Positions 42,521 to 52,450 of a stretch of 64,000 nt of DNA are shown here, one piece after another. The notes under the pieces were generated by a model. That model was not told the origin of the DNA. It was given only the letters and a program-made list of their open reading frames with translations, and searched no databases. Positions within the stretch are counted from its first letter, which is position 1. Every line of letters starts with the position of its first letter. A program made the position numbers and the translations under genes. This stretch comes from Brevibacillus brevis (GTDB lineage: Bacteria; Bacillota; Bacilli; Brevibacillales; Brevibacillaceae). The stretch lies in the NCBI RefSeq assembly GCF_031583145.1, contig NZ_CP134050.1:3919501-3983500 (forward strand), read 5' to 3'.

Positions 42521-43816
42521 CTACTCCAAACGGTATATTTTCCCGGGCCGTCCACGAGATGAAGTCGCCTTCTCCCCGACGCAGACCGCCAGCCCTACCT
42601 CCGCCAAGCTCGTGATAATGCGCCGGACATTGCGCTCGTCCAGATGGAGCTGAGTAGCCAGCTCCTTTGTGGAAAAAGTGGCCCAGCCCATTTTCCGGAC
42701 GAATGCGGCAATCTTGTTGTACGTCCGGATGCCCACATTCGCTTTTTTGAGCCGCTCCAGAAACTCCGGATCATCCATGCGGACCGAGTAGGAAAGTTCC
42801 TCGTCTTTTCCTGCCGATTCGATGACGGTGCCGTCTTCCTGAACGATCACAATCCCGGATTCGGCTTTTTCTTTCGAGTACTGGATGGCTGAAATCGCAT
42901 TGACCTCCGCGGAAAAGACCGTTTCCCCAAAGCCGATTCCGACTTCGACCGTCGATTCCGTCTCCAGCGCGAGCTGCTCGACCGTGTTTTTGAGCATGTC
43001 CAGCCTGCGCTCGATCGCTCCCCGAGAGCTGAAGATCACGTAGCGGCCGTTTCCCCGCTCCATGAGTGAGCCGTCGATCGTTTCGCAGAGGCGGATCAGC
43101 GCCTCCTTCAGCCGCAGCTCGAGGTATTGCAGCCGGTACGGGTTTCTTGCCTTCTCCGCGATTTTGTCAAATTCGTCGATCTCGATGATCTCGACGGCGA
43201 TTTGTGTATCCTTGAAATAAAAAGCCCGAACCCTTTCCGCCAGGATGCGCAGGGCCTGGTTGATCTCCAATTCGCTGGGGGTAAACCAATAGGCCGGTAC
43301 ACCCGCCTCTTTCAGCTGGAGATAGACGCCTTCGAAGCAGGTGATGGCGGCGTCCGTCTTGCCCTCGCGCCACAGCTGCAGGTGAAAGTCTAGCAGGTCA
43401 TCCGGATTCGTATCGATATCGTATGTCTTCACATAAAGGTCTTTGGCTGCGAAATCCAGCTGTCCGAGCGCGACCTCCAGCTGCGACTCGTACAGCTCGT
43501 CGATGCTTACGCGCTCGATGAATTTCCCCTGATGATACGCCATTAGCAGAAAGCAGCGGTACAGGCTGGACTCGGTATGCTGGATGTGCACGAGGTTTTC
43601 GTCCGTATGCAGGACATCCTCCGCGATCAAATAAGGCAGTTTTCCGGAAAAGAGCCACATGTCGACCTGGTCGTCGTTCTCTTGCACGATGCGGCGTGTC
43701 TCCTGAAATTCATGGTACGGCAAAGGAATAAATCGCATGATCGGTTCAAATTCCGCTGCCAGCCCCAGTATCCTGTCTACCGAAGTCTTTGGCCCAACAA
43801 CACCAATTTGATACAT
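42521..43816 (-). CDS. GGDEF-like/winged-helix transcriptional regulator
   Basis: This 431-residue protein has three parts. An N-terminal region looks like a ligand-sensing fold (IGVVGPKTSVDRILGLAAEF, ending near residue 180). A middle part resembles a degenerate nucleotide-cyclase/GGDEF-like fold (ERGNGRYVIFSSRG, STVEVGIGFGETVFSAEVNAISAI), without a GGDEF signature. A C-terminal winged helix (FSTKELATQLHLDERNVRRIITSLAEVGL) ends in GRPGKIYRLE. I do not recognise a named family member. It is the next gene after the nitroreductase, with its own upstream region and a terminator between, so it is a plausible regulator of the argH-to-nitroreductase operon. Confidence 0.7.
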   Translation of the reverse strand: MYQIGVVGPKTSVDRILGLAAEFEPIMRFIPLPYHEFQETRRIVQENDDQVDMWLFSGKLPYLIAEDVLHTDENLVHIQHTESSLYRCFLLMAYHQGKFIERVSIDELYESQLEVALGQLDFAAKDLYVKTYDIDTNPDDLLDFHLQLWREGKTDAAITCFEGVYLQLKEAGVPAYWFTPSELEINQALRILAERVRAFYFKDTQIAVEIIEIDEFDKIAEKARNPYRLQYLELRLKEALIRLCETIDGSLMERGNGRYVIFSSRGAIERRLDMLKNTVEQLALETESTVEVGIGFGETVFSAEVNAISAIQYSKEKAESGIVIVQEDGTVIESAGKDEELSYSVRMDDPEFLERLKKANVGIRTYNKIAAFVRKMGWATFSTKELATQLHLDERNVRRIITSLAEVGLAVCVGEKATSSRGRPGKIYRLE

Positions 43817-43955
43817 ATCGAAACCCCTTCGTGCCTATTTATTCATCGTTTCGTATTTTTCCATTATTCGTATATAATATCGCACTTATGGGATGAGCGT
43901 ATATATCTAGGCGAAAACTTTTGGCTGCTCAAACTTTTTGGCCAAGTCCCGAATC

Positions 43956-43976
43956 CGCCGAGAAGCTACCTCGGCG
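43956..43976. repeat. hairpin upstream of the regulator gene
   Basis: CGCCGAG and CTCGGCG form a 7-bp stem with a 7-base loop, next to the terminator of the preceding operon. It has no T run. Confidence 0.5.
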
Positions 43977-43978
43977 AT

Positions 43979-44025
43979 GAAAAAAAGAGCTCCGCTAATG
44001 GCAGCCATTATCAGAACTCTTTTTA
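43979..44025 (-). terminator. terminator of the argH-to-nitroreductase operon
   Basis: On the minus strand AAGAG...TAATGG pairs with CCATTA...CTCTT in a long stem followed by TTTTTTTC, just after the nitroreductase stop. Confidence 0.82.
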
Positions 44026-44029
44026 GTCC

Positions 44030-44767
44030 TTATTTCCTTAGAAGCCCTTGGTTTTCTACGTAGTTTTTGATGTTGGCCCGTCTGGCTCGATTGAAGTACT
44101 CCGCCATTTGCTTCGTCCAGCCATCTGTCTGTTTGCCGTTGGTGCGCCTGCGGTAGTAGTCTGCGGAGATCGCCTCATACTCCTCCAGCCCGGACAGCAT
44201 GTCCTCCGTGCGATAAGCATCCTCATGCACCACCACTCGCTGCGGCAATCTCGGTTTTTGCAGCGGTTCTTCCGCAGGATATCCCAGACACATCCCCATG
44301 ATCGGCATGGTGTAGCGAGGCAGGTCCAGCAGTTCGCTGACCGCTTCGGGATTGTCGCGTATGCCGCCGATCATGACTCCGCCCAGACCGAACGATCTGG
44401 CTGCGATCATCACGTTTTGCGCAGCGAGGGCTGTATCTACTGCGCCTACCAGCAAATCCTCCGGCTGGCCGAGCGTAAACGAGGTGGCGTGCATCTCGCA
44501 CGTCAGCTGCAACCGATAGAAGTCCGCGCAAAACACCAAAAACACGGGACTGGTAGCGATAAACGCTTGCGAGCAAAGCTCCGCCAAACGCTTTTGGATC
44601 GCTTTGTCCTTTACATGAACGATGCTGTAAGCCTGCACGTTGTGAGAAGTAGGCGCCCATTGGGCCGATGCGAACAATGCTTCGAGAATTTCCCGCGAAA
44701 CAGGCTCGTTGGTATACTTCCGGATGGACCTGTGGCTTTGGATCAGCCTCGTCGTCTCGTTCGTCAT
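44030..44767 (-). CDS. nitroreductase family protein (NfrA-like)
   Basis: This 245-residue FMN-dependent NAD(P)H reductase has the HRSIRKYTNEPVSREILEALFASAQWAPTSHNVQAYSI N terminus and the RSFGLGGVMIGGIRDN region of NfrA-type nitroreductases. NfrA-type reductases act on quinones, nitro compounds or flavins. The ATG at 44767 overlaps the stop of the deacetylase-like gene (ATGA), so it is translationally coupled to it and is the last gene of the operon. In this setting it might reduce a pathway intermediate; that is inference. Confidence 0.9.
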   Translation of the reverse strand: MTNETTRLIQSHRSIRKYTNEPVSREILEALFASAQWAPTSHNVQAYSIVHVKDKAIQKRLAELCSQAFIATSPVFLVFCADFYRLQLTCEMHATSFTLGQPEDLLVGAVDTALAAQNVMIAARSFGLGGVMIGGIRDNPEAVSELLDLPRYTMPIMGMCLGYPAEEPLQKPRLPQRVVVHEDAYRTEDMLSGLEEYEAISADYYRRRTNGKQTDGWTKQMAEYFNRARRANIKNYVENQGLLRK

Positions 44768-45606
44768 TTCTGTTGCCCCCGCATGGTAAACTCCGCCATC
44801 TGACGCGCCGTACAAATCCATACATCGTCCCTCTGGCGAATGTAGGCGAACAGCTTCTCCAGCAGTCCGATCCGTCCCGGAGTGCCGATCGTCTGCGGGT
44901 CAAACTGCGTGACGTAATGCAAGCCGTACTCGTAAAAACCGTCGAACTCCCGTTTCCAGGCGCTGAGGACTTGCGTGTAGTTCGCGATCCTGCCCTGTCC
45001 TGCTGGAAAAGCCGGGGTGTAGTTGAAAGCAAAGTACGGGAAGTCGTTTAACTCCCAATGCAGCGGGAGCTCGACCAGTGGCGGCCGTTGCCCGGAAAAC
45101 GCATGAATATACGGACGGTCGTCTCCGAACAGAGAGCTCGAATAAAGAAAGCCGAAATCCGCTAAAAGCTCCAGCGTCTCTTGGGTCATCTCTCCCTCCG
45201 GCGCGCGAAAGCCGACCGGGCGAGTGCCTGTGATCTCTTCCAGCACGTCCATGCCCCTCACGATCTCCTCACGCTGCCGATCCACGGAAAGATGTCCGAA
45301 GTTTTCATGCGTATAGCCGTGGTGAGCGATTTCATGGCCCCTCTTCACGATTTCCCGCACCTGCTCCGGATAGGTCTGTGCTGTTCGGCCAGGGATGAAA
45401 AAAGTGGCCGTGATCCCGTATTCGTCCAGCGCGTTCAAGACTCTCTGAAGCCCGCGATTCGGACCGTATTGCCCCATCGACAAGGTTTTCGGACGGTGGA
45501 TGCTATCCGGAAACATGCTGAGCCAAAAAAATTCCGCATCCAGATTGATGGTCACCGTCACGGCGCACTTGGCACGATTGGGCCAAACGATATGGTTGTC
45601 AGGCAT
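44764..45606 (-). CDS. polysaccharide deacetylase-like hydrolase (PuuE/cyclic imidase type), copy 2
   Basis: This 280-residue NodB-homology protein has the metal-site Asp in TINLDAEFFW (about residue 20) and the paired histidines in GHEIAHHGYTHENFG (about residues 95-108), then GFRAPEGEMTQETLELLADFGF. This is the PuuE allantoinase / HpPgdA / cyclic imide hydrolase branch, not the secreted sugar deacetylases: there is no signal peptide. It is a clear paralogue of the gene just upstream. AAGGAGG precedes the ATG at 45606. The neighbours favour hydrolysis of a cyclic amide or imide in the cytosol. Confidence 0.82.
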   Translation of the reverse strand: MPDNHIVWPNRAKCAVTVTINLDAEFFWLSMFPDSIHRPKTLSMGQYGPNRGLQRVLNALDEYGITATFFIPGRTAQTYPEQVREIVKRGHEIAHHGYTHENFGHLSVDRQREEIVRGMDVLEEITGTRPVGFRAPEGEMTQETLELLADFGFLYSSSLFGDDRPYIHAFSGQRPPLVELPLHWELNDFPYFAFNYTPAFPAGQGRIANYTQVLSAWKREFDGFYEYGLHYVTQFDPQTIGTPGRIGLLEKLFAYIRQRDDVWICTARQMAEFTMRGQQK

Positions 45607-45626
45607 GCTGTCCCCTCCTTCTCCTC

Positions 45627-46472
45627 CTAATACTTCTCTCTCCACCATTCGGCGATCTGCTCCCCGGTGGCAAACCATACGTCCGGATGGGACTTGATGT
45701 GCTGAATCAATTGTTCCAGCATCAGGATCCGGCCCGGCTTCCCGATGATTTGCGGGTGCATCATGAGCACGTAGCACAAGCCGTATCGGTAGTAGCCGTC
45801 GAATTCCTGCTTGAAGTTGTCCAGCACGTACTCATGGCTGCTGATCCGGTCTTGGCCGGCAGGTTCGGCCGGGTACAGGTTGTAGCCGAATTGCACGTAA
45901 TCGTCCAGCTCCCATCTTGGCGGAATCTCGATGAAATCGGATTCCTCGCCATTCAGCACGGTGCGATACGGACGGTCATCCCCGCGCATGGAGCTGGAGT
46001 AGAGGAAGCCCGCGTCGTGCAAGAGCTGCGGAGTCTGCTTGGCCCAGTCACCCGAAGGCGTCCGAAAGCCTCTCGCTTCTTTTCCGACCATTCGTTTGAA
46101 GATGTCTTGGCTGCGCTGGATGATGTCGAGCTGCTCTTCGGAGGACAGATCGACAAACCTTTCGTGAAGGTAGCCGTGATGCCCCAATTCGTGACCCTCC
46201 TTCGCAATCGCGACAAAAGGCTCCGGGTATGTTTCCGCCACCCATGCCGGGACAAAAAACGTAGCGGGAAGGTCGTATTTGCGCAGTAGCTCCAGAATTC
46301 GCGGCACGGAGCGCAGCGGCCCGTACTGCCCGATGGACAGGGAACGAATAAACTGGGAGCCTCCTTCTATATGCTTGTTTCCATTTGCCCAAATCGTTTC
46401 CGCATCCATATCGAAACTCAACATGACAGCACATCTGGCGCCGTTCGGCCATTGCAAACGCGGTTCGCTCAC
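45627..46472 (-). CDS. polysaccharide deacetylase-like hydrolase (PuuE/cyclic imidase type), copy 1
   Basis: This 281-residue protein has LSFDMDAETIW for the metal Asp and GHELGHHGYLHERFVDL for the paired His, then GFRTPSGDWAKQTPQLLHDAGF. Like its neighbour it lacks a signal peptide and belongs to the PuuE/HpPgdA/imidase branch. The start is GTG 46472 with AGGAGGTG about 9 bases upstream. Two paralogues in tandem suggest either two related substrates or a heteromeric enzyme. Confidence 0.82.
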   Translation of the reverse strand: MSEPRLQWPNGARCAVMLSFDMDAETIWANGNKHIEGGSQFIRSLSIGQYGPLRSVPRILELLRKYDLPATFFVPAWVAETYPEPFVAIAKEGHELGHHGYLHERFVDLSSEEQLDIIQRSQDIFKRMVGKEARGFRTPSGDWAKQTPQLLHDAGFLYSSSMRGDDRPYRTVLNGEESDFIEIPPRWELDDYVQFGYNLYPAEPAGQDRISSHEYVLDNFKQEFDGYYRYGLCYVLMMHPQIIGKPGRILMLEQLIQHIKSHPDVWFATGEQIAEWWREKY

Positions 46473-46494
46473 GTTCGTGGCACCTCCTTGTTGG

Positions 46495-47217
46495 TTAAAT
46501 CATTTTTTCCAGGAACTGTTTGGCACGCTCCGACTTCGGATTTTGGAAAAACTCGGAAGGCGAAGCGTCCTCCACCAGTCTTCCGCCGTCCAAAAAGCAG
46601 ATGCGGTCCGCTACTTCCCGCGCGAACGCCATCTCGTGCGTGACGAGCGCCATGGTGATCCCGGTATGGGCCAGCGCTTGAATTACCTGCAGCACTTCTT
46701 TGACCATTTCCGGATCCAGCGCCGAGGTCGGTTCGTCAAACAACATGACTTCCGGTTCCATCGCCAAAGCGCGGGCGATCGCCACCCGTTGCTTTTGGCC
46801 GCCGGACAGTTTTCCCGGGAACACATCCTGTTTGTCTTTCAGTCCAACCCGGGTGAGCAGTTCGATCCCCTTCTGCTCGGCCTGCTCTTTGCTCATGCCT
46901 TTCACCTTCATCGGCGCGTAGGTCATATTTTGCATAACCGTCATATGGGGGAACAGATTGAAGTGTTGAAACACCATCCCGATGTTTTGCCGCACCGCCA
47001 TCAGGTTGGTCTTCGGGCTGGTGATGTCCTGGCCCTTGATCATGACAGACCCGCTCGTCGGCGTTTCCAGCAAGTTCATGCAGCGAAGCAGCGTCGATTT
47101 CCCCGATCCGGACGGGCCGATAATCGCCACGACGTCTCCCTTGCCGATTTCAAGGGAAATGTCACGGAGGACTTCCAGTTGTCCAAAACGTTTTGAGAGG
47201 CCCTCTATTTTAATCAC
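46495..47217 (-). CDS. amino acid ABC transporter ATP-binding protein (GlnQ type)
   Basis: This 240-residue ATPase has Walker A GPSGSGKST, QHFNLFPHMTVMQNM, signature LSGGQKQRVAIARALAMEP, Walker B VMLFDEPTSALDPEMV and switch LVTHEM. The pattern is that of polar amino-acid importers. Its start overlaps the permease stop by 8 bases. With the permease and binding protein it forms a complete importer. Confidence 0.95.
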   Translation of the reverse strand: MIKIEGLSKRFGQLEVLRDISLEIGKGDVVAIIGPSGSGKSTLLRCMNLLETPTSGSVMIKGQDITSPKTNLMAVRQNIGMVFQHFNLFPHMTVMQNMTYAPMKVKGMSKEQAEQKGIELLTRVGLKDKQDVFPGKLSGGQKQRVAIARALAMEPEVMLFDEPTSALDPEMVKEVLQVIQALAHTGITMALVTHEMAFAREVADRICFLDGGRLVEDASPSEFFQNPKSERAKQFLEKMI

Positions 47218-47869
47218 TTCTGCGCACTCTCCTTTCCAGTTGCCGCGCGATGGAAGTCAGGATCATGACGAGAACGTAGTAGATCGCCGCCGCCAGGATC
47301 AGCGGTTCAAACGCCAGATACGTCTCGTTTTGAATCACTTGCGCCCCTCTCAAAATATCCATGACGCCGATGGTCGCCACCAGTGTCGAATCTTTCAAAA
47401 GCCCAATGCTTTCGTTCACAAGCGCAGGCAAAATGTGTTTCAATGCCTGCGGAAAAATAATGTCGAGCATCATTCGGCGGTACGGAACGCCGAGAGACAT
47501 CGCCGCTTCCCGTTGCCCTTTATCCACGGCGAGGATCCCGCCGCGGATGACTTCGGAGATATAGGCTGCAGAGTTCAAGCCAAATGTGAGAACGGCCGCC
47601 TCCAGGGCGGGAATGCTGTACCCCGTCAACTGCGGCGTCGCGAAGTACACGAGAAACAGCTGCACCAGCAAAGGCGTGCCCCGAAAAACGGACGTGTAGG
47701 CGATTCCGAACCAGGCGAGCGGCTTGATTCTGGAGATCTTGAAAAGCGAGAGAATGGTCCCCCAAATAAAACCCGCAATGGCAGAAAGCACGGTAAATTT
47801 CAACGTGACCAGTACTCCGTTCAAGAGGAACGGAATACTGGGAATAATTTGCTCAAATTGCAGATTCAT
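47210..47869 (-). CDS. amino acid ABC transporter permease (GlnP/HisM type)
   Basis: This 219-residue membrane protein has about five helices and the conserved SVFRGTPLLVQLFLVYF and EVIRGGILAVDKGQREAAMSLG motif, the contact loop to the ATPase. It lies 11 bases after the binding-protein stop and overlaps the ATPase gene. Confidence 0.95.
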   Translation of the reverse strand: MNLQFEQIIPSIPFLLNGVLVTLKFTVLSAIAGFIWGTILSLFKISRIKPLAWFGIAYTSVFRGTPLLVQLFLVYFATPQLTGYSIPALEAAVLTFGLNSAAYISEVIRGGILAVDKGQREAAMSLGVPYRRMMLDIIFPQALKHILPALVNESIGLLKDSTLVATIGVMDILRGAQVIQNETYLAFEPLILAAAIYYVLVMILTSIARQLERRVRRSD

Positions 47870-47880
47870 GGCTGACTCCT

Positions 47881-48675
47881 TTATTGTTGGTTGAATTCTT
47901 TACCGAGCCATTTCTCAATCAGCTTGTCCAATTCGCCGTTTTCTTTCATTTTCTTCAGTTCTTTGTTAAACGGCTCTACCCACTTGGAGCCTTTCGGGAA
48001 TGCGAACGCGAAGGTGTCGTCGGTAGCCGGCAGCAGGTGCATTTCCAGTTCCGGATACTTCTTCAGGAAGACGGCTGCCTGGGAGCCGTCGATAAATGCC
48101 GCATCTACACGCTTGTTGTTCAGCTCCTGAATGACGGCCGTGCTGTTGTCCAGACTGACGACATTGGCACCCTGGATGGCTTTGGCGTCTTTTTCATACG
48201 TCGTGCCGAATACGACAGCGATCTTTTTGCCACCGAGCTGATCCAGAGCGGAGAAGTTCGAGCCCTTGGGCGCCAGGATCGCATTGCGCGGGGAGAAGTA
48301 TGAGTCGGAGAAGTCGACGTTTTTCTTCCGTTCCTCTGTCGGAGACATGGCAGACACGGCGACGTCGGCACGTCCATCCATCAAGGAGCCGATCAAGCCG
48401 GAGAAGGCGATATCATTAATGGTCATGGTGACACCCAGATTGCTGGCAATTTGGTTCGCGATGTCAATGTCCAGACCGACGTACTTTTTCTCTCCGCTGG
48501 AGGTGTCTACGGATTCGAATGGCGGGAAGGTCGCATTGGTCACAACGACCAGCTCCTTGTCCGATTTCTTGCCATCCGCTTGCGGACTTGCCTGCTGGGA
48601 ACTTCCACAGCCCGCCAGCATGGCTACAGACAGTACGGCAGTCAACAACACACCTGCAAATGCTTTCTTTTTCAT
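47881..48675 (-). CDS. amino acid ABC transporter substrate-binding lipoprotein
   Basis: This 264-residue family 3 solute-binding lipoprotein has a signal peptide ending in the lipobox LAGC. TNATFPPFESVDTSSGEKKYVGLDIDIA is the canonical start of the binding domain, and an arginine for the carboxylate lies in DGRADVAVSAMSPTEERKK. ATG 48675 is preferred over TTG 48684 because GGGAG lies 9 bases upstream. Substrate is a polar amino acid or derivative. Confidence 0.93.
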   Translation of the reverse strand: MKKKAFAGVLLTAVLSVAMLAGCGSSQQASPQADGKKSDKELVVVTNATFPPFESVDTSSGEKKYVGLDIDIANQIASNLGVTMTINDIAFSGLIGSLMDGRADVAVSAMSPTEERKKNVDFSDSYFSPRNAILAPKGSNFSALDQLGGKKIAVVFGTTYEKDAKAIQGANVVSLDNSTAVIQELNNKRVDAAFIDGSQAAVFLKKYPELEMHLLPATDDTFAFAFPKGSKWVEPFNKELKKMKENGELDKLIEKWLGKEFNQQ

Positions 48676-48741
48676 GATGAACAACTCCCTTTTTATAATG
48701 AAAAATGAGATACCTGATAGAAGGCTTGCACCAAACCCAGA

Positions 48742-49473
48742 TCAGAGCTCTCCGCTGCTCCAGCTCCGATGCCGGAGCGGCGGTGACGGATAGGCGATGC
48801 GGCTGTGCGACAAGCGCTGGGCGTGAAGCAGCTCGGCCATGTTGATGGCGGCAAAAGCCGGATCGACGACGGGCGCGCCCGTGAGTTCGGAAACTTCCCG
48901 GCCCATCCCCGCAAAGCTGAGGCAGCCCAAAACAAGCACGTGCGCACGGTCTTTTTCGATACAGTCGCGTCCCGCTTCCGCAAGCAGTCGAATCGTATCC
49001 GGAATGTCGTGGCGCGGGTCGTCGGTTGGAAGCTCGATACTCCGTACGGAAGCGAGCCTGCTGGGGTCCACTCCCGAATAGCGAACCGATTCTTCTTTTT
49101 CGGGCATCCTCTTGTGCGAGGTGGTCAGCAGGGAAAAGCGATAGCCCAGCATGCCCGCTACGAGCATGGACGCTTGACCTCCTCCGATCACGGGGATTCG
49201 GACGACTTCCCGGCACGCCACCATCGCCGGGTCGCTCAGGCAATAGAGAACCACTGCATCATAGCCGTCTTGTTCGGCTTGCTTCGCACGCTTCACAATT
49301 TCGGCTCCCGCGAGAACGACGTCCAGTGCGGAGTCGATGGCCACGTGCGTGTCGGTCAGGCAGTCCATGGAGATGACCGTATCCGGCTTCGCAACCGCCT
49401 GCAGCATCCGCTCGCGGCTTCGCAAGGTCTCGTCGGACATGCCGAAGTCCGGGTTAATCACCTTGATACGCAT
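48742..49473 (-). CDS. Asp/Glu/hydantoin racemase family protein
   Basis: This 243-residue protein starts with IKVINPDFGMSDETL, the HydA-racemase-like entry, and has both expected catalytic cysteines, in VVLYCLSDPAM (about residue 78) and VLGCLSFAGMG (about residue 185). Hydantoin racemases interconvert D- and L-5-substituted hydantoins; relatives racemise free Asp or Glu. The frame ends in a proline/arginine/serine-rich tail. It lies 38 bases after argH and before the binding protein, in one operon. Confidence 0.9.
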   Translation of the reverse strand: MRIKVINPDFGMSDETLRSRERMLQAVAKPDTVISMDCLTDTHVAIDSALDVVLAGAEIVKRAKQAEQDGYDAVVLYCLSDPAMVACREVVRIPVIGGGQASMLVAGMLGYRFSLLTTSHKRMPEKEESVRYSGVDPSRLASVRSIELPTDDPRHDIPDTIRLLAEAGRDCIEKDRAHVLVLGCLSFAGMGREVSELTGAPVVDPAFAAINMAELLHAQRLSHSRIAYPSPPLRHRSWSSGEL

Positions 49474-49510
49474 TAAAATCCCTCCCCGGTTTTCCGATCT
49501 GTCTGTTTGC

Positions 49511-50830
49511 CTACTGCTTTAGAGCGACTTTCGTACCTTTGTTCAAAATATTGTGATAGTCAATATACTCATAAAGATCTTGATCGATCTTCTCTTCAAA
49601 CGACTGCAACTCTTCCAGCGAAAGGTCTTCGATTCCCTTGTGATGATCCTCGCAGTAGATGACGATGGATCCGACGATGCTGTGGGCGTCCCGGAATGCG
49701 ACTCCCTTTTTCACCAGGTAATCGGCAAGCTCGGTTGCGTTCAGGAAGCCCTTTTTCACGGCGGACTCCATGTTTTTGTGCAACACTTTCATCGAGGCGA
49801 TCATCTTGGCCATGATTTGCAGGCACGCGATCGTCGTATCCAGTGCGTTAAAGAACGCCTCCTTGTCCTCCTGCATGTCCTTGTTGTACGCCAGAGGCAA
49901 GCCTTTCATCGTCGTGAGCAGAGAAACCAGCGAGCCGTAGACGCGTCCCGATTTGCCGCGGATCAGCTCGGCTGCATCCGGGTTTTTCTTTTGCGGCATG
50001 ATGCTGCTCCCTGTGGCGTACGCATCGTCGATTTCGATGAATTTGAATTCCTGGCTGCTCCACAAAATCAGTTCCTCGCTCAGCCTGCTCAGGTGCATCA
50101 TGATGATCGAGAAATCGGCCATCAGCTCCAGCAAGTAATCCCGATCGCTGACCCCGTCGATGAAGTTGTCTACCGGTTTGGCGAAGTTCAGCTCGCGGGC
50201 CGTGATCTCCCTGTCGATCAGATGGGTCGTGCCGGCCAGCGCGCCGCAGCCAAGCGGGCTTTCATCCAATATTTCCATCGCGTTTCGAATCCGTTTCTTA
50301 TCCCGCTCCAGCATTTGCGCATACGCCAGCAGATGGTGCTTCATCGTCACGACTTGCGCCCGCTGCAGATGGGTATAGCCTGGCATGATCGAAGGATTTT
50401 CTTCCGCCTTGGTTTTCAGGCTCTCCTGCAGTTCCTCTACCGCTGCCAGCACGTCACTCGCTTTTCGCCTCGCATACAGGCGGATGTCTACGGCGACCTG
50501 GTCGTTTCTGCTCCGGGCCGTATGTAGTTTTTTGCCAGTGTCTCCGATGCGCTGGATCAGATGGCTCTCCACGAAGCTGTGGATGTCTTCGTACTCGCCT
50601 TCCAACGCCAGCGCGCCGCTTTCGATGTCTTGCAGAATGGACAAGAGTCCCTCGCGTATTTTCTCCCCTTCTTCCCGGGTCAGAATGGAACATTGCGTCA
50701 GCATGTTGACATGGGCCACGCTGCCGGAAATATCTTCGAGATACATGCGCCTGTCGACGTGCAGGGAACTGTTGAAATCCTCCATGAGTTTGTTTTCTTC
50801 CTTGCGAAAGCGCCCTCCCCATAGCTTCAT
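49511..50830 (-). CDS. argH: argininosuccinate lyase family protein
   Basis: This 439-residue protein belongs to the aspartase/fumarase superfamily and is closest to ArgH: KLWGGRFRKEENKLMEDFNSS at the start, HTARSRNDQVAVD, PGYTHLQRAQV with the catalytic His, and the signature GSSIMPQKKNPD with the catalytic Ser loop. True ArgH cleaves argininosuccinate to arginine and fumarate. No argG is nearby, although argG and argH are usually adjacent. The same fold is used by lyases that cleave other N-substituted aspartates such as EDDS. The operon context (racemase, importer, imidase-like hydrolases) makes a catabolic role possible. Confidence 0.85.
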   Translation of the reverse strand: MKLWGGRFRKEENKLMEDFNSSLHVDRRMYLEDISGSVAHVNMLTQCSILTREEGEKIREGLLSILQDIESGALALEGEYEDIHSFVESHLIQRIGDTGKKLHTARSRNDQVAVDIRLYARRKASDVLAAVEELQESLKTKAEENPSIMPGYTHLQRAQVVTMKHHLLAYAQMLERDKKRIRNAMEILDESPLGCGALAGTTHLIDREITARELNFAKPVDNFIDGVSDRDYLLELMADFSIIMMHLSRLSEELILWSSQEFKFIEIDDAYATGSSIMPQKKNPDAAELIRGKSGRVYGSLVSLLTTMKGLPLAYNKDMQEDKEAFFNALDTTIACLQIMAKMIASMKVLHKNMESAVKKGFLNATELADYLVKKGVAFRDAHSIVGSIVIYCEDHHKGIEDLSLEELQSFEEKIDQDLYEYIDYHNILNKGTKVALKQ

Positions 50831-51172: not shown

Positions 51173-52450
51173 TCAGCCTTTCGATCGTTTCCTCTGCTTG
51201 CTCCATTCCCAGACGCGCAGGAACAACAGAATCGCCACCGGATACAGGCCGGACCAACCGAGAAACGGATACAGTCCCAACGAGACGACCAGCGATATCC
51301 AGGCGCACAGTTTGCCCAGGCGCGAATCCCTCAGCAAGCGAACTGCGGCACAGCAACCGCCGATGTACGTGGCAAAAAAAGTGGCATTCGGCAGTTGGAT
51401 CAGCTGGGAGAACGAGATCATCCCACTGGCGAGCACGTAAAACACGATGGCAAAAGCTAGTGCGATAAAGGCGAGTCCCCCAACGGGTGTCCGGTACTTC
51501 GGATGCAGGATCCCGAACCATTTCGGTGCGATCCCTTCCTGGGCCAAAGCGTAGGCGATTCGGGAAGCGGCGCTGACGTAGGCGTTGGCCGAAGCGATAC
51601 AGATGAAGAGGGCTGTCACTGCCACGATCCAGCCGCCGACCGGCCCTAGGGACAGCCCTACCATGACGCTCAGAGACGCTGCCGACAACTGATTGCCGTA
51701 GCTGTGCGTCCCGACGGTCAGAAAGGCTACGCCGAAGTAGAGCAGCGCTACCGCCCCGGCGCTCCACAAAACTCCCCGGATCGCGTTTTTCTGCGGATCG
51801 ACGAATTCCTGCGACAAATGCGTGACCGCCTCCCAGCCGATGAAGCACCAGAACAGCAGCGCAGCCGACTGCATCACGCTGTACCAGCCGTGTGGCAAAA
51901 ACGGGGTGAGGTGCACCGGGTCGTAATGCGGGATAGCTGTGCAGATCGCGAGCAACAGAATGGCGATGATGAGGGATACGACGATCGTCTGCACTTTGCC
52001 TGCCAGCTGCAAGCCGAACACATTCATCCCCAGCACGACGAAAAAGATCAGAGCCGCCACCGCGTAGGTCTGGACGTCTCCCCAATTCAACAGAATCGCC
52101 ACATACTTGGCGCCGGTCACGGCCAGGATCGGACCCCCGATCGGTACCGCCAACAGAAAAAACCAGCCGACCGCGTTTCCGAAGCGATCCCCGAACGCAA
52201 GCCGCACGAAATGGGAAACGCCGCCCGAATGAGGATGCCTTGCAGATAAAAGCCCCATCGTGATGGCCATCGGGACGACCAGCACGGACATGACCGCCCA
52301 CGCCACGATCGAGGCAGGTCCTGCCATTTCCGCAGCCAGACCGGGGATGAGCAGAATTCCGGAGCCCACTACCGCTCCGATGTAGAGCGCGACGATTTGC
52401 GGCAAAGACAGCGTCTCTTGAAAAACCGAATGGACAGATGCTTGTTTCAT
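51173..52450 (-). CDS. APC family amino acid permease (YjeH-like)
   Basis: This 425-residue membrane protein has about twelve helices of the APC superfamily. The helix 1 motif GAVVGSGILLIPGLAA binds the amino acid, and WCFIGWEAVTHLSQEFVDPQKN is the conserved helix 6 region. It is closer to the YjeH exporter branch than to import permeases; direction is not certain. GAAAC and GGGGGAAACC precede the ATG. A terminator separates it from the downstream argH operon. Confidence 0.87.
   Translation of the reverse strand: MKQASVHSVFQETLSLPQIVALYIGAVVGSGILLIPGLAAEMAGPASIVAWAVMSVLVVPMAITMGLLSARHPHSGGVSHFVRLAFGDRFGNAVGWFFLLAVPIGGPILAVTGAKYVAILLNWGDVQTYAVAALIFFVVLGMNVFGLQLAGKVQTIVVSLIIAILLLAICTAIPHYDPVHLTPFLPHGWYSVMQSAALLFWCFIGWEAVTHLSQEFVDPQKNAIRGVLWSAGAVALLYFGVAFLTVGTHSYGNQLSAASLSVMVGLSLGPVGGWIVAVTALFICIASANAYVSAASRIAYALAQEGIAPKWFGILHPKYRTPVGGLAFIALAFAIVFYVLASGMISFSQLIQLPNATFFATYIGGCCAAVRLLRDSRLGKLCAWISLVVSLGLYPFLGWSGLYPVAILLFLRVWEWSKQRKRSKG

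Follow-up and report, generated by a model that had tools for sequence, protein, structure and literature searches.

What would a second argininosuccinate lyase (ASL) gene, argH, be doing with no argG beside it, in an operon with a hydantoin-type racemase, an amino-acid importer and two hydrolases labelled polysaccharide deacetylases? The question arose from a locus of Brevibacillus brevis (assembly GCF_031583145.1, contig NZ_CP134050.1), analyzed within a window, the whole stretch of 64,000 nucleotides from 3,919,501 to 3,983,500, which is numbered here from its first letter. The module itself, as gene set and linkage, is well supported. Our preferred answer, held at somewhat less than even confidence, is a catabolic (salvage) operon for ring-closed argininosuccinate which would end in arginine and fumarate; the substrate, the order of steps, a heteromeric hydrolase and the regulation are what we infer from the findings below. 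The features are as follows.

49511..50830, minus strand: argH2, argininosuccinate-lyase family, 439 aa, short C-terminus (TIGR00838, PF00206 and PF14698)
48742..49473, minus strand: RAC, Asp/Glu/hydantoin racemase family, 243 aa (PF01177, 113 bits)
47881..48675, minus strand: SBP, family-3 polar amino-acid binding protein, lipoprotein-like start (PF00497)
47210..47869, minus strand: PERM, amino-acid ABC permease (PF00528; TIGR01726 HEQRo_perm_3TM over cut-off)
46495..47217, minus strand: ATP, amino-acid ABC ATPase, GTG start (PF00005)
45627..46472, minus strand: PDA1, NodB-fold hydrolase, GTG start, D21/D23/H99/H103/R137/H239 (PF01522, 87.7 bits)
44764..45606, minus strand: PDA2, paralogue of PDA1 (45% identity), presumed pseudoenzyme subunit (base D to N, acid H to D)
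44030..44767, minus strand: NTR, NfsA/NfrA-type flavin mononucleotide oxidoreductase (NF008033, 259.9 bits, cut-off 223)
43978..44028, minus strand: intrinsic terminator of the operon, hairpin and U tract (-22.4 kcal/mol, z -5.25)
42521..43816, minus strand: REG, presumed one-component regulator (predicted-structure matches)

The eight genes from argH to NTR stand in one row on the minus strand (50830 to 44030), and all eight frames are open. A preliminary description of positions 42521 to 50830 had given this gene order, the single strand and the families, and these were confirmed by the frames and by Pfam and NCBIfam matches. Where it had claimed four overlaps we found two, PERM/ATP (8 nt) and PDA2/NTR (4 nt, ATGA), the distances in the order argH to NTR being 37, 66, 11, -8, 22, 20 and -4 nt. 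It had also placed the operon at 42521 to 50830, but the operon ends at 44030 with the terminator after NTR, and 43816 to 42521 is a separate gene, REG, lying 213 nt downstream of the operon end and followed by its own hairpin (-29.3 kcal/mol, z -7.04). The operon terminator hairpin was missed by a simple consensus scan and rests on folding-energy analysis; promoter- and terminator-like consensus sites were not enriched over shuffles (5 versus 4.2 and 11 versus 9.2, respectively). The name PDA is taken from the Pfam label and carries no substrate meaning.

In the 6.23-Mb assembly a normal argG-argH pair was found away from the operon (C1:5631287-5633895), and the operon ArgH ranked second of the four proteins over the TIGR00838 cut-off (586.5 bits, cut-off 279.5). 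It was the same as canonical ASLs at all 14 catalytic and pocket positions checked (duck numbering S29, D33, R115, N116, T161, H162, S283, K289, N291, E296, Y323, Q328, D330 and K331), the numbering and roles being those of ASL structures, with S29, Y323 and Q328 on the arginine side. The two further ArgH-like genes over the cut-off (C1:4654544-4655857 and 3290082-3291365) had altered pocket residues, indicating that they are probably not argininosuccinate lyases, although their placement near S29 differed between two alignments and the letters there are unsafe. The operon ArgH was aligned with delta-crystallin and with solved structures, scoring 448.8 bits to the ASL 1tj7 and 161.9 bits to 6g3d, which we take to be the lyase of ethylenediaminedisuccinate (EDDS). 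EDDS lyase identity was rejected on this far lower score.

The solved structures nearest to RAC were the hydantoin/allantoin racemases 3qvj and 5lfd. Its motifs YCLSDP and LGCLSF, kept in two related loci described below (L028, L029), aligned to the 3qvj cysteines, and their cysteines are presumably the two of the active site. SBP aligned with solved amino-acid binding proteins and kept the ligand-site Arg and Asp (Asp in 4zv1 and 6svf, Glu in 4ymx), so that the amino-acid head of the ligand is probably free, which sets it apart from plain hydantoins and imides. The best NCBIfam models for ATP were GlnQ, TcyN and EhuA, each under its cut-off, and the best NCBIfam permease match, a cystine permease, also fell under cut-off.

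The NodB fold and PF01522 were present in both PDA proteins, with the residue set D,D,H,H,R,H in PDA1 and N,D,H,H,R,D in PDA2. Among 22 such pairs collected from other genomes and the operon itself, PDA1 retained all six residues in 19, the exceptions being L032, L033 and L255, with the catalytic base also gone from PDA1 in the latter two. PDA2 was without the base Asp and acid His in 21 of the 22 (that of L032 was intact), and its metal set was partly or wholly gone in ten. Unpaired PDA rows kept all six residues in 80 of 81 cases. A quick tree with one support value, made from the ten pairs then at hand, placed the PDA1s and PDA2s in two clades joined with the lone PDA of L034 (support 99), the Chloroflexi pair L032 being basal in both, as expected from one duplication. 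On their sequences the two PDAs are evidently one ancient duplicated pair, the second member of which was stripped of catalytic residues. Its retention next to an intact paralogue suggests a heteromeric enzyme, and PDA1/PDA2 are probably a single heteromeric enzyme with a pseudoenzyme subunit.

If the Pfam and NCBIfam labels were followed, the pair would be glycan or peptidoglycan deacetylases. These labels are superfamily names only, while no signal peptide was seen by eye at the PDA N-termini and the operon is shared with an amino-acid importer and ArgH. The nearest solved relatives point the same way: the AlphaFold2 model of PDA2 (predicted local distance difference test score, pLDDT, 88.9) matched 3rxz best in the PDB, then HP0310 and PuuE-type structures, and for HP0310 its authors favour a small substrate as likelier (PMC3084791). 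We consider action on glycans highly improbable. PuuE is described in PMC10967932 and PMC3084791 as a relative that needs no metal and acts on a small ring compound. PuuE identity was tried and rejected for our pair; TIGR03212 scored 101.5 bits for PDA2 (long reading frame) and 99.1 bits for PDA1, far under the cut-off of 424.6, and the metal-free site pattern read from PuuE-like 1z7a is found in neither residue set.

Argininosuccinate loses water to form a five-membered-ring anhydride (PMC6918381), and by our own reading that ring is an iminohydantoin (2-imino-imidazolidin-4-one). Such a ring suits a hydantoin-type racemase and, after it, an allantoinase-like opening, whose product is the substrate of ArgH. 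In the route we favour, the ABC importer would take up an amino acid with the guanidino group closed on the succinyl part (argininosuccinic anhydride), and possibly argininosuccinate too. RAC would epimerise the ring carbon in the manner of hydantoin and allantoin racemases, and the PDA1/PDA2 heteromer would hydrolyse the ring amide to give L-argininosuccinate, with PDA1 as catalytic subunit and PDA2 holding or shaping the site. ArgH would then cleave argininosuccinate to arginine and fumarate, which may continue through arginase and ornithine aminotransferase, and through fumarase and malic enzyme, respectively. REG would sense the substrate.

The preliminary description had proposed uptake, ring opening and ArgH-type cleavage as the likely logic, which we retain. 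Its two PuuE/imidase-like enzymes are replaced by one duplicated pair whose PDA2 lacks catalytic residues and which differs from PuuE in scores and site pattern. Succinimide, hydantoin and EDDS, which it had listed among the compounds to assay, give way to argininosuccinate, favoured by the ArgH pocket and by arginases in Gordonibacillus (below). It had given as refuting its own catabolic reading the case that this argH is the only one in the genome, which the normal argGH pair contradicts, and a related gene order in other genomes, which it had offered as a check, was found in L028, L029, L256 and clostridial loci.

PDA1 relatives were few close to B. brevis. At E <= 1e-30 they occurred in 3 of 119 genomes, a count that contains the B. 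brevis genome itself and no second member of its genus; at E <= 1e-60 they occurred in 2 of 398 genomes of its class, again counting its own. The operon is thus rare there. Three other genomes (L028, L029 and L256) nevertheless have the same block, RAC-SBP-PERM-ATP-PDA1-PDA2, which is more than chance. In Gordonibacillus kamchatkensis (L028; Bacilli, Paenibacillaceae) the whole set lies in one run headed by a REG homologue, with ArgH between PDA2 and NTR (identities: REG 60%, RAC 72%, SBP 62%, PERM 80%, ATP 78%, PDA1 74%, PDA2 68%, ArgH 51%). Behind it follow a LysR gene (by eye), an arginase, an ornithine aminotransferase and a second arginase, the two arginases being the only arginase matches in that genome; argG and argH are also present elsewhere in it, separate from the operon. 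The B. brevis genome has one arginase over cut-off. The Gordonibacillus NTR gene (L028:13160-13911) is split over two frames, through decay or draft error.

To judge the linkage of ArgH to the pair, 94 loci were searched alike by tblastn in a single pass, 22 of them with a PDA pair and 72, the control, with a single PDA gene; ArgH was counted at more than 40% identity and more than 250 aa. ArgH was present at 10 of the 22 pair loci versus none of the 72 single-PDA loci, and RAC at 7 versus none; a malic-enzyme match occurred at one of the 72 single-PDA loci. A pair was defined as two PDA matches within 1.5 kb, with L033, L034 and L248 on short or cut contigs (L033 and L248 having little flank). 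The 94 loci consist of the best 80 of the 401 relatives (588 stretches) listed in a scan of named genomes, L171, 12 neighbourhoods picked on PDA2 matches and not on ArgH, and the B. brevis operon, so that the counts are no census; because the clostridial loci are closely related, 10 of 22 does not stand for ten independent events. Outside this count were the lone matches G668, G624:C12, G725:C28 and G885 and the single-PDA loci L020-L025, which had no ArgH in a separate scan, L022 having a REG homologue. Neighbour genes were called by a simple open reading frame chooser; some were then checked against families, while the names of the others come from BLAST comparison with the operon or from visual inspection.

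A clostridial version, PDA1-PDA2-argH, was found in seven genomes, and six of its eight clusters include a malic-enzyme-like gene. Bacilliculturomica massiliensis (G404, Clostridia) has three ArgHs within about 19 kb, in clusters that each begin with a sigma-54 regulator: cluster A continues with an AGCS carrier, PDA1, PDA2 and ArgH; cluster B with an ATC-hydrolase-family gene, ArgH, a malic-enzyme-like gene, fumarase and an MFS gene; and cluster C with PDA1, PDA2, a YfcC-like gene, an M20 gene and ArgH. The argG of this genome lies elsewhere, but every ArgH over cut-off belongs to one of the three clusters. A search with the PDA2 alignment over 297 genomes of its order gave matches in 11, G404 included. 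Six of these loci (L247, L249-L253) comprise regulator, carrier, PDA1, PDA2, ArgH and malic-enzyme-like gene; L250 and L251 have a fumarase gene in addition, L249 and L251 a racemase gene. Each ArgH over cut-off in these six genomes is the cluster's own. In L248 (G569) the contig ends just after PDA2 and the sole ArgH over cut-off starts another contig, so that it is at most a candidate partner of the pair. The malic-enzyme-like genes matched the NADP-malic enzyme model under cut-off, as did the YfcC-like gene its own model.

The operon ArgHs do not share one origin. In the tree the B. brevis protein clustered with six relatives' ArgHs from REG-APC permease-ArgH cassettes; that of Gordonibacillus clustered with four ArgHs of REG-SBP-PERM-ATP-ArgH cassettes and one argG-adjacent ArgH (L176); and the clostridial ArgHs formed a third branch, indicating that the PDA pair acquired its ArgHs from three branches of the ArgH tree. 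The first tree had two very long outgroup branches and a long-branch warning; a tree without outgroups gave the same three branches, with some warnings remaining. Second ArgHs in importer-lyase cassettes without adjacent argG occurred in at least 10 of 60 genomes (six REG-permease-ArgH, four REG-SBP-PERM-ATP-ArgH). We count these cassettes in favour of the salvage route, together with the presence of a second ArgH in a genome whose argGH pair is intact, its retained catalytic and pocket residues, the three branches of origin, the pair-versus-single control, the neighbouring genes for arginase, fumarase and malic-enzyme-like proteins, and the ADI/DDAH (L254), arginase (L258) and ATC-hydrolase (L031) families near related genes.

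These last three loci vary the theme. At L254:52-10694 a sigma-54-type regulator, an ADI/DDAH-family enzyme and a peptide-type ABC importer (by eye) accompany PDA1 (36%), PDA2 (41%) and RAC (36%), with no ArgH. This locus lends itself to another explanation, in which PDA1/PDA2 open arginine glycation products (hydroimidazolones, e.g. MG-H1) to carboxyalkyl-arginine and ArgH is one of several downstream enzymes; hydroimidazolones have the same 2-imino-imidazolidinone ring and a racemisable carbon. Carboxyethyl- and carboxymethyl-arginine, however, are without the second carboxylate needed for ArgH chemistry, so that ArgH at 10 of 22 loci would be left unexplained, and the L254 PDAs are only 36-41% identical; we judge this explanation unlikely. 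L258:327-11488 is the third G404 PDA pair, with an amino-acid ABC importer and, nearby on the opposite strand, genes for an arginase-family protein and for a 437-aa protein that matches no Pfam family. By eye, the PDA pairs of L063 and L035 also have a look-alike of the latter close by. In L031:865-3535 an ATC-hydrolase-family gene directly precedes ArgH, a malic-enzyme-like gene and fumarase. Known ATC hydrolases open a cyclic isothiourea, and this gene is possibly another ring opener beside ArgH. A broader proposal, which we advance only as a doubtful one, is that PDA1/PDA2 found a family of heteromeric NodB-fold hydrolases for ring-closed guanidino arginine derivatives, whose products would go to ArgH in Bacilli and Clostridia and elsewhere to enzymes of the ADI/DDAH or arginase families, a general arginine-iminohydantoin route which would include argininosuccinate anhydrides and perhaps glycation products.

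Several observations weigh against the salvage of argininosuccinic anhydride. The proposed scheme would require an environmental source of the anhydride, and it gives no role to NTR, whose best PDB match was NfrA1 5hdj. ArgH was absent from 12 pair loci (L029, L030, L032, L033, L035, L063, L248, L254, L255, L256, L257 and L258), among them four with PDA1 61-73% identical (L029, L030, L256 and L257; in the DNA examined) and all seven more distant pairs. L029 (a Syntrophomonas metagenome-assembled genome) and L256 (G849) have the entire block from RAC to PDA2 with no argH nearby, and where argH is present its position is not fixed (first gene in B. brevis, between PDA2 and NTR in Gordonibacillus). 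RAC, the importer and the pair could thus form a self-contained operon for hydantoins or cyclic imides, with argH2 an unrelated neighbour. Arrival of argH from three branches and its presence at pair but not single loci speak against this. G849 encodes a further ArgH over cut-off which might fill the role, and the L029 genome encodes none over cut-off. Such a chance neighbourhood seems to us improbable.

The clostridial lyases raise a different difficulty. All 14 positions were as in canonical ASLs in the Gordonibacillus operon ArgH and in Bacilliculturomica ArgH B, but Bacilliculturomica ArgH A has Y323L and ArgH C has S29A and D33Y, while among seven further clostridial ArgHs L247_2 has Y323L and L253 has Y323F. 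The motif, RSRNDQVA in the B. brevis operon ArgH and in Bacilliculturomica B and C, reads RSRNDQCQ or RSRNDQNV in Bacilliculturomica A and all seven further clostridial proteins. These changes suggest that the amine part may differ in those ArgHs, and the clostridial cluster ArgH may also serve arginine synthesis. Near six clostridial clusters (L248-L253), on the opposite strand, lies a D-cysteine-desulfhydrase-like pyridoxal phosphate gene which arginine does not predict; that of L250, the sole one scanned, was under curated cut-offs and the others were named by eye.

The same module logic might therefore apply to another N- or S-succinyl substrate, such as another amine, an EDDS-like ligand or a succinated thiol, a possibility we take seriously without thinking it probable. 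The ArgH superfamily does cleave other succinyl adducts, EDDS lyase (presumably 6g3d) being one. For 2SL, cleavage of N-acetyl-S-(2-succino)cysteine is reported in PMC9706529. The clostridial pocket changes, the desulfhydrase-like gene and the cystine permease as top, under-cut-off NCBIfam permease match also fit a succinated thiol or other amine. Against it stand the much closer similarity of the operon ArgH to true ASLs than to 6g3d, its retained arginine-side residues S29, Y323 and Q328, the arginases behind the Gordonibacillus operon, and a scan of ten window proteins, among which no yxe-type acetyltransferase or M20 deacetylase was found. The salvage of ring-closed argininosuccinate remains our preference.

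REG gave no Pfam or NCBIfam match. Its AlphaFold2 model (pLDDT 86.9) matched PrpR 2pju (TMt up to 0.76, E ~1e-5) and GGDEF/cyclase domains in Foldseek, from which we presume a PrpR-sensor-like N-domain, a GGDEF/cyclase-like middle and C-terminal helices for DNA binding. In L207, L208, L209, L210, L211 and L213, REG homologues have as neighbours M20 genes together with either AbgT or MFS genes (mostly by eye). REG perhaps represents a regulator family for N-substituted amino-acid utilisation. Upstream of argH on the same strand lies an APC-family permease gene (51173-52450), which shares only 26% identity with the permease found in REG-APC-ArgH cassettes of relatives and is thus probably outside the system.

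Among known systems, purine catabolism pairs an allantoin racemase with the PuuE allantoinase step, and so resembles the operon in joining a hydantoin-type racemase to a NodB-fold opener of a five-membered ureide ring; PDA1, however, has the metal-binding set that PuuE lacks, and the operon adds a pseudoenzyme partner and ArgH as the next step. The ArgH of arginine synthesis is matched in family score, signature and catalytic and pocket residues, but the operon ArgH is a second copy without argG, accompanied by importer, racemase and ring-opening hydrolases, and has a shorter C-terminus. EDDS lyase of Chelativorans, a catabolic member of the ArgH superfamily, likewise frees fumarate from an N-succinyl compound, at far lower similarity. 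The AbgT and M20 hydrolase loci share adjoining REG homologues, but have another hydrolase class and no ArgH. The yxe locus with 2SL, for breakdown of S-(2-succino)cysteine, also combines an importer with a lyase-class-I enzyme freeing fumarate from a succinyl adduct; it works via N-acetylation and deacetylation, and neither a racemase nor a NodB-fold pair is named in the available part of PMC9706529. That pathway was rejected as a candidate, no acetyltransferase, YxeK or 2SL, or deacetylase being found among the ten window proteins scanned.

No description of the operon was found in the open-licence literature, as judged by titles and abstract openings in partial listings. If our reading is true, the operon would encode an undescribed breakdown route that draws ArgH, commonly regarded as a sign of arginine synthesis, from several branches and puts it to new use as the final catabolic step. 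A gene pair now labelled polysaccharide deacetylases would gain a function, as a hydrolase that is a heteromer of a catalytic and a pseudoenzyme subunit. The operon might also become a source of enzymes for opening argininosuccinic anhydrides, compounds that are measured alongside argininosuccinate in argininosuccinate lyase deficiency (PMC6918381).

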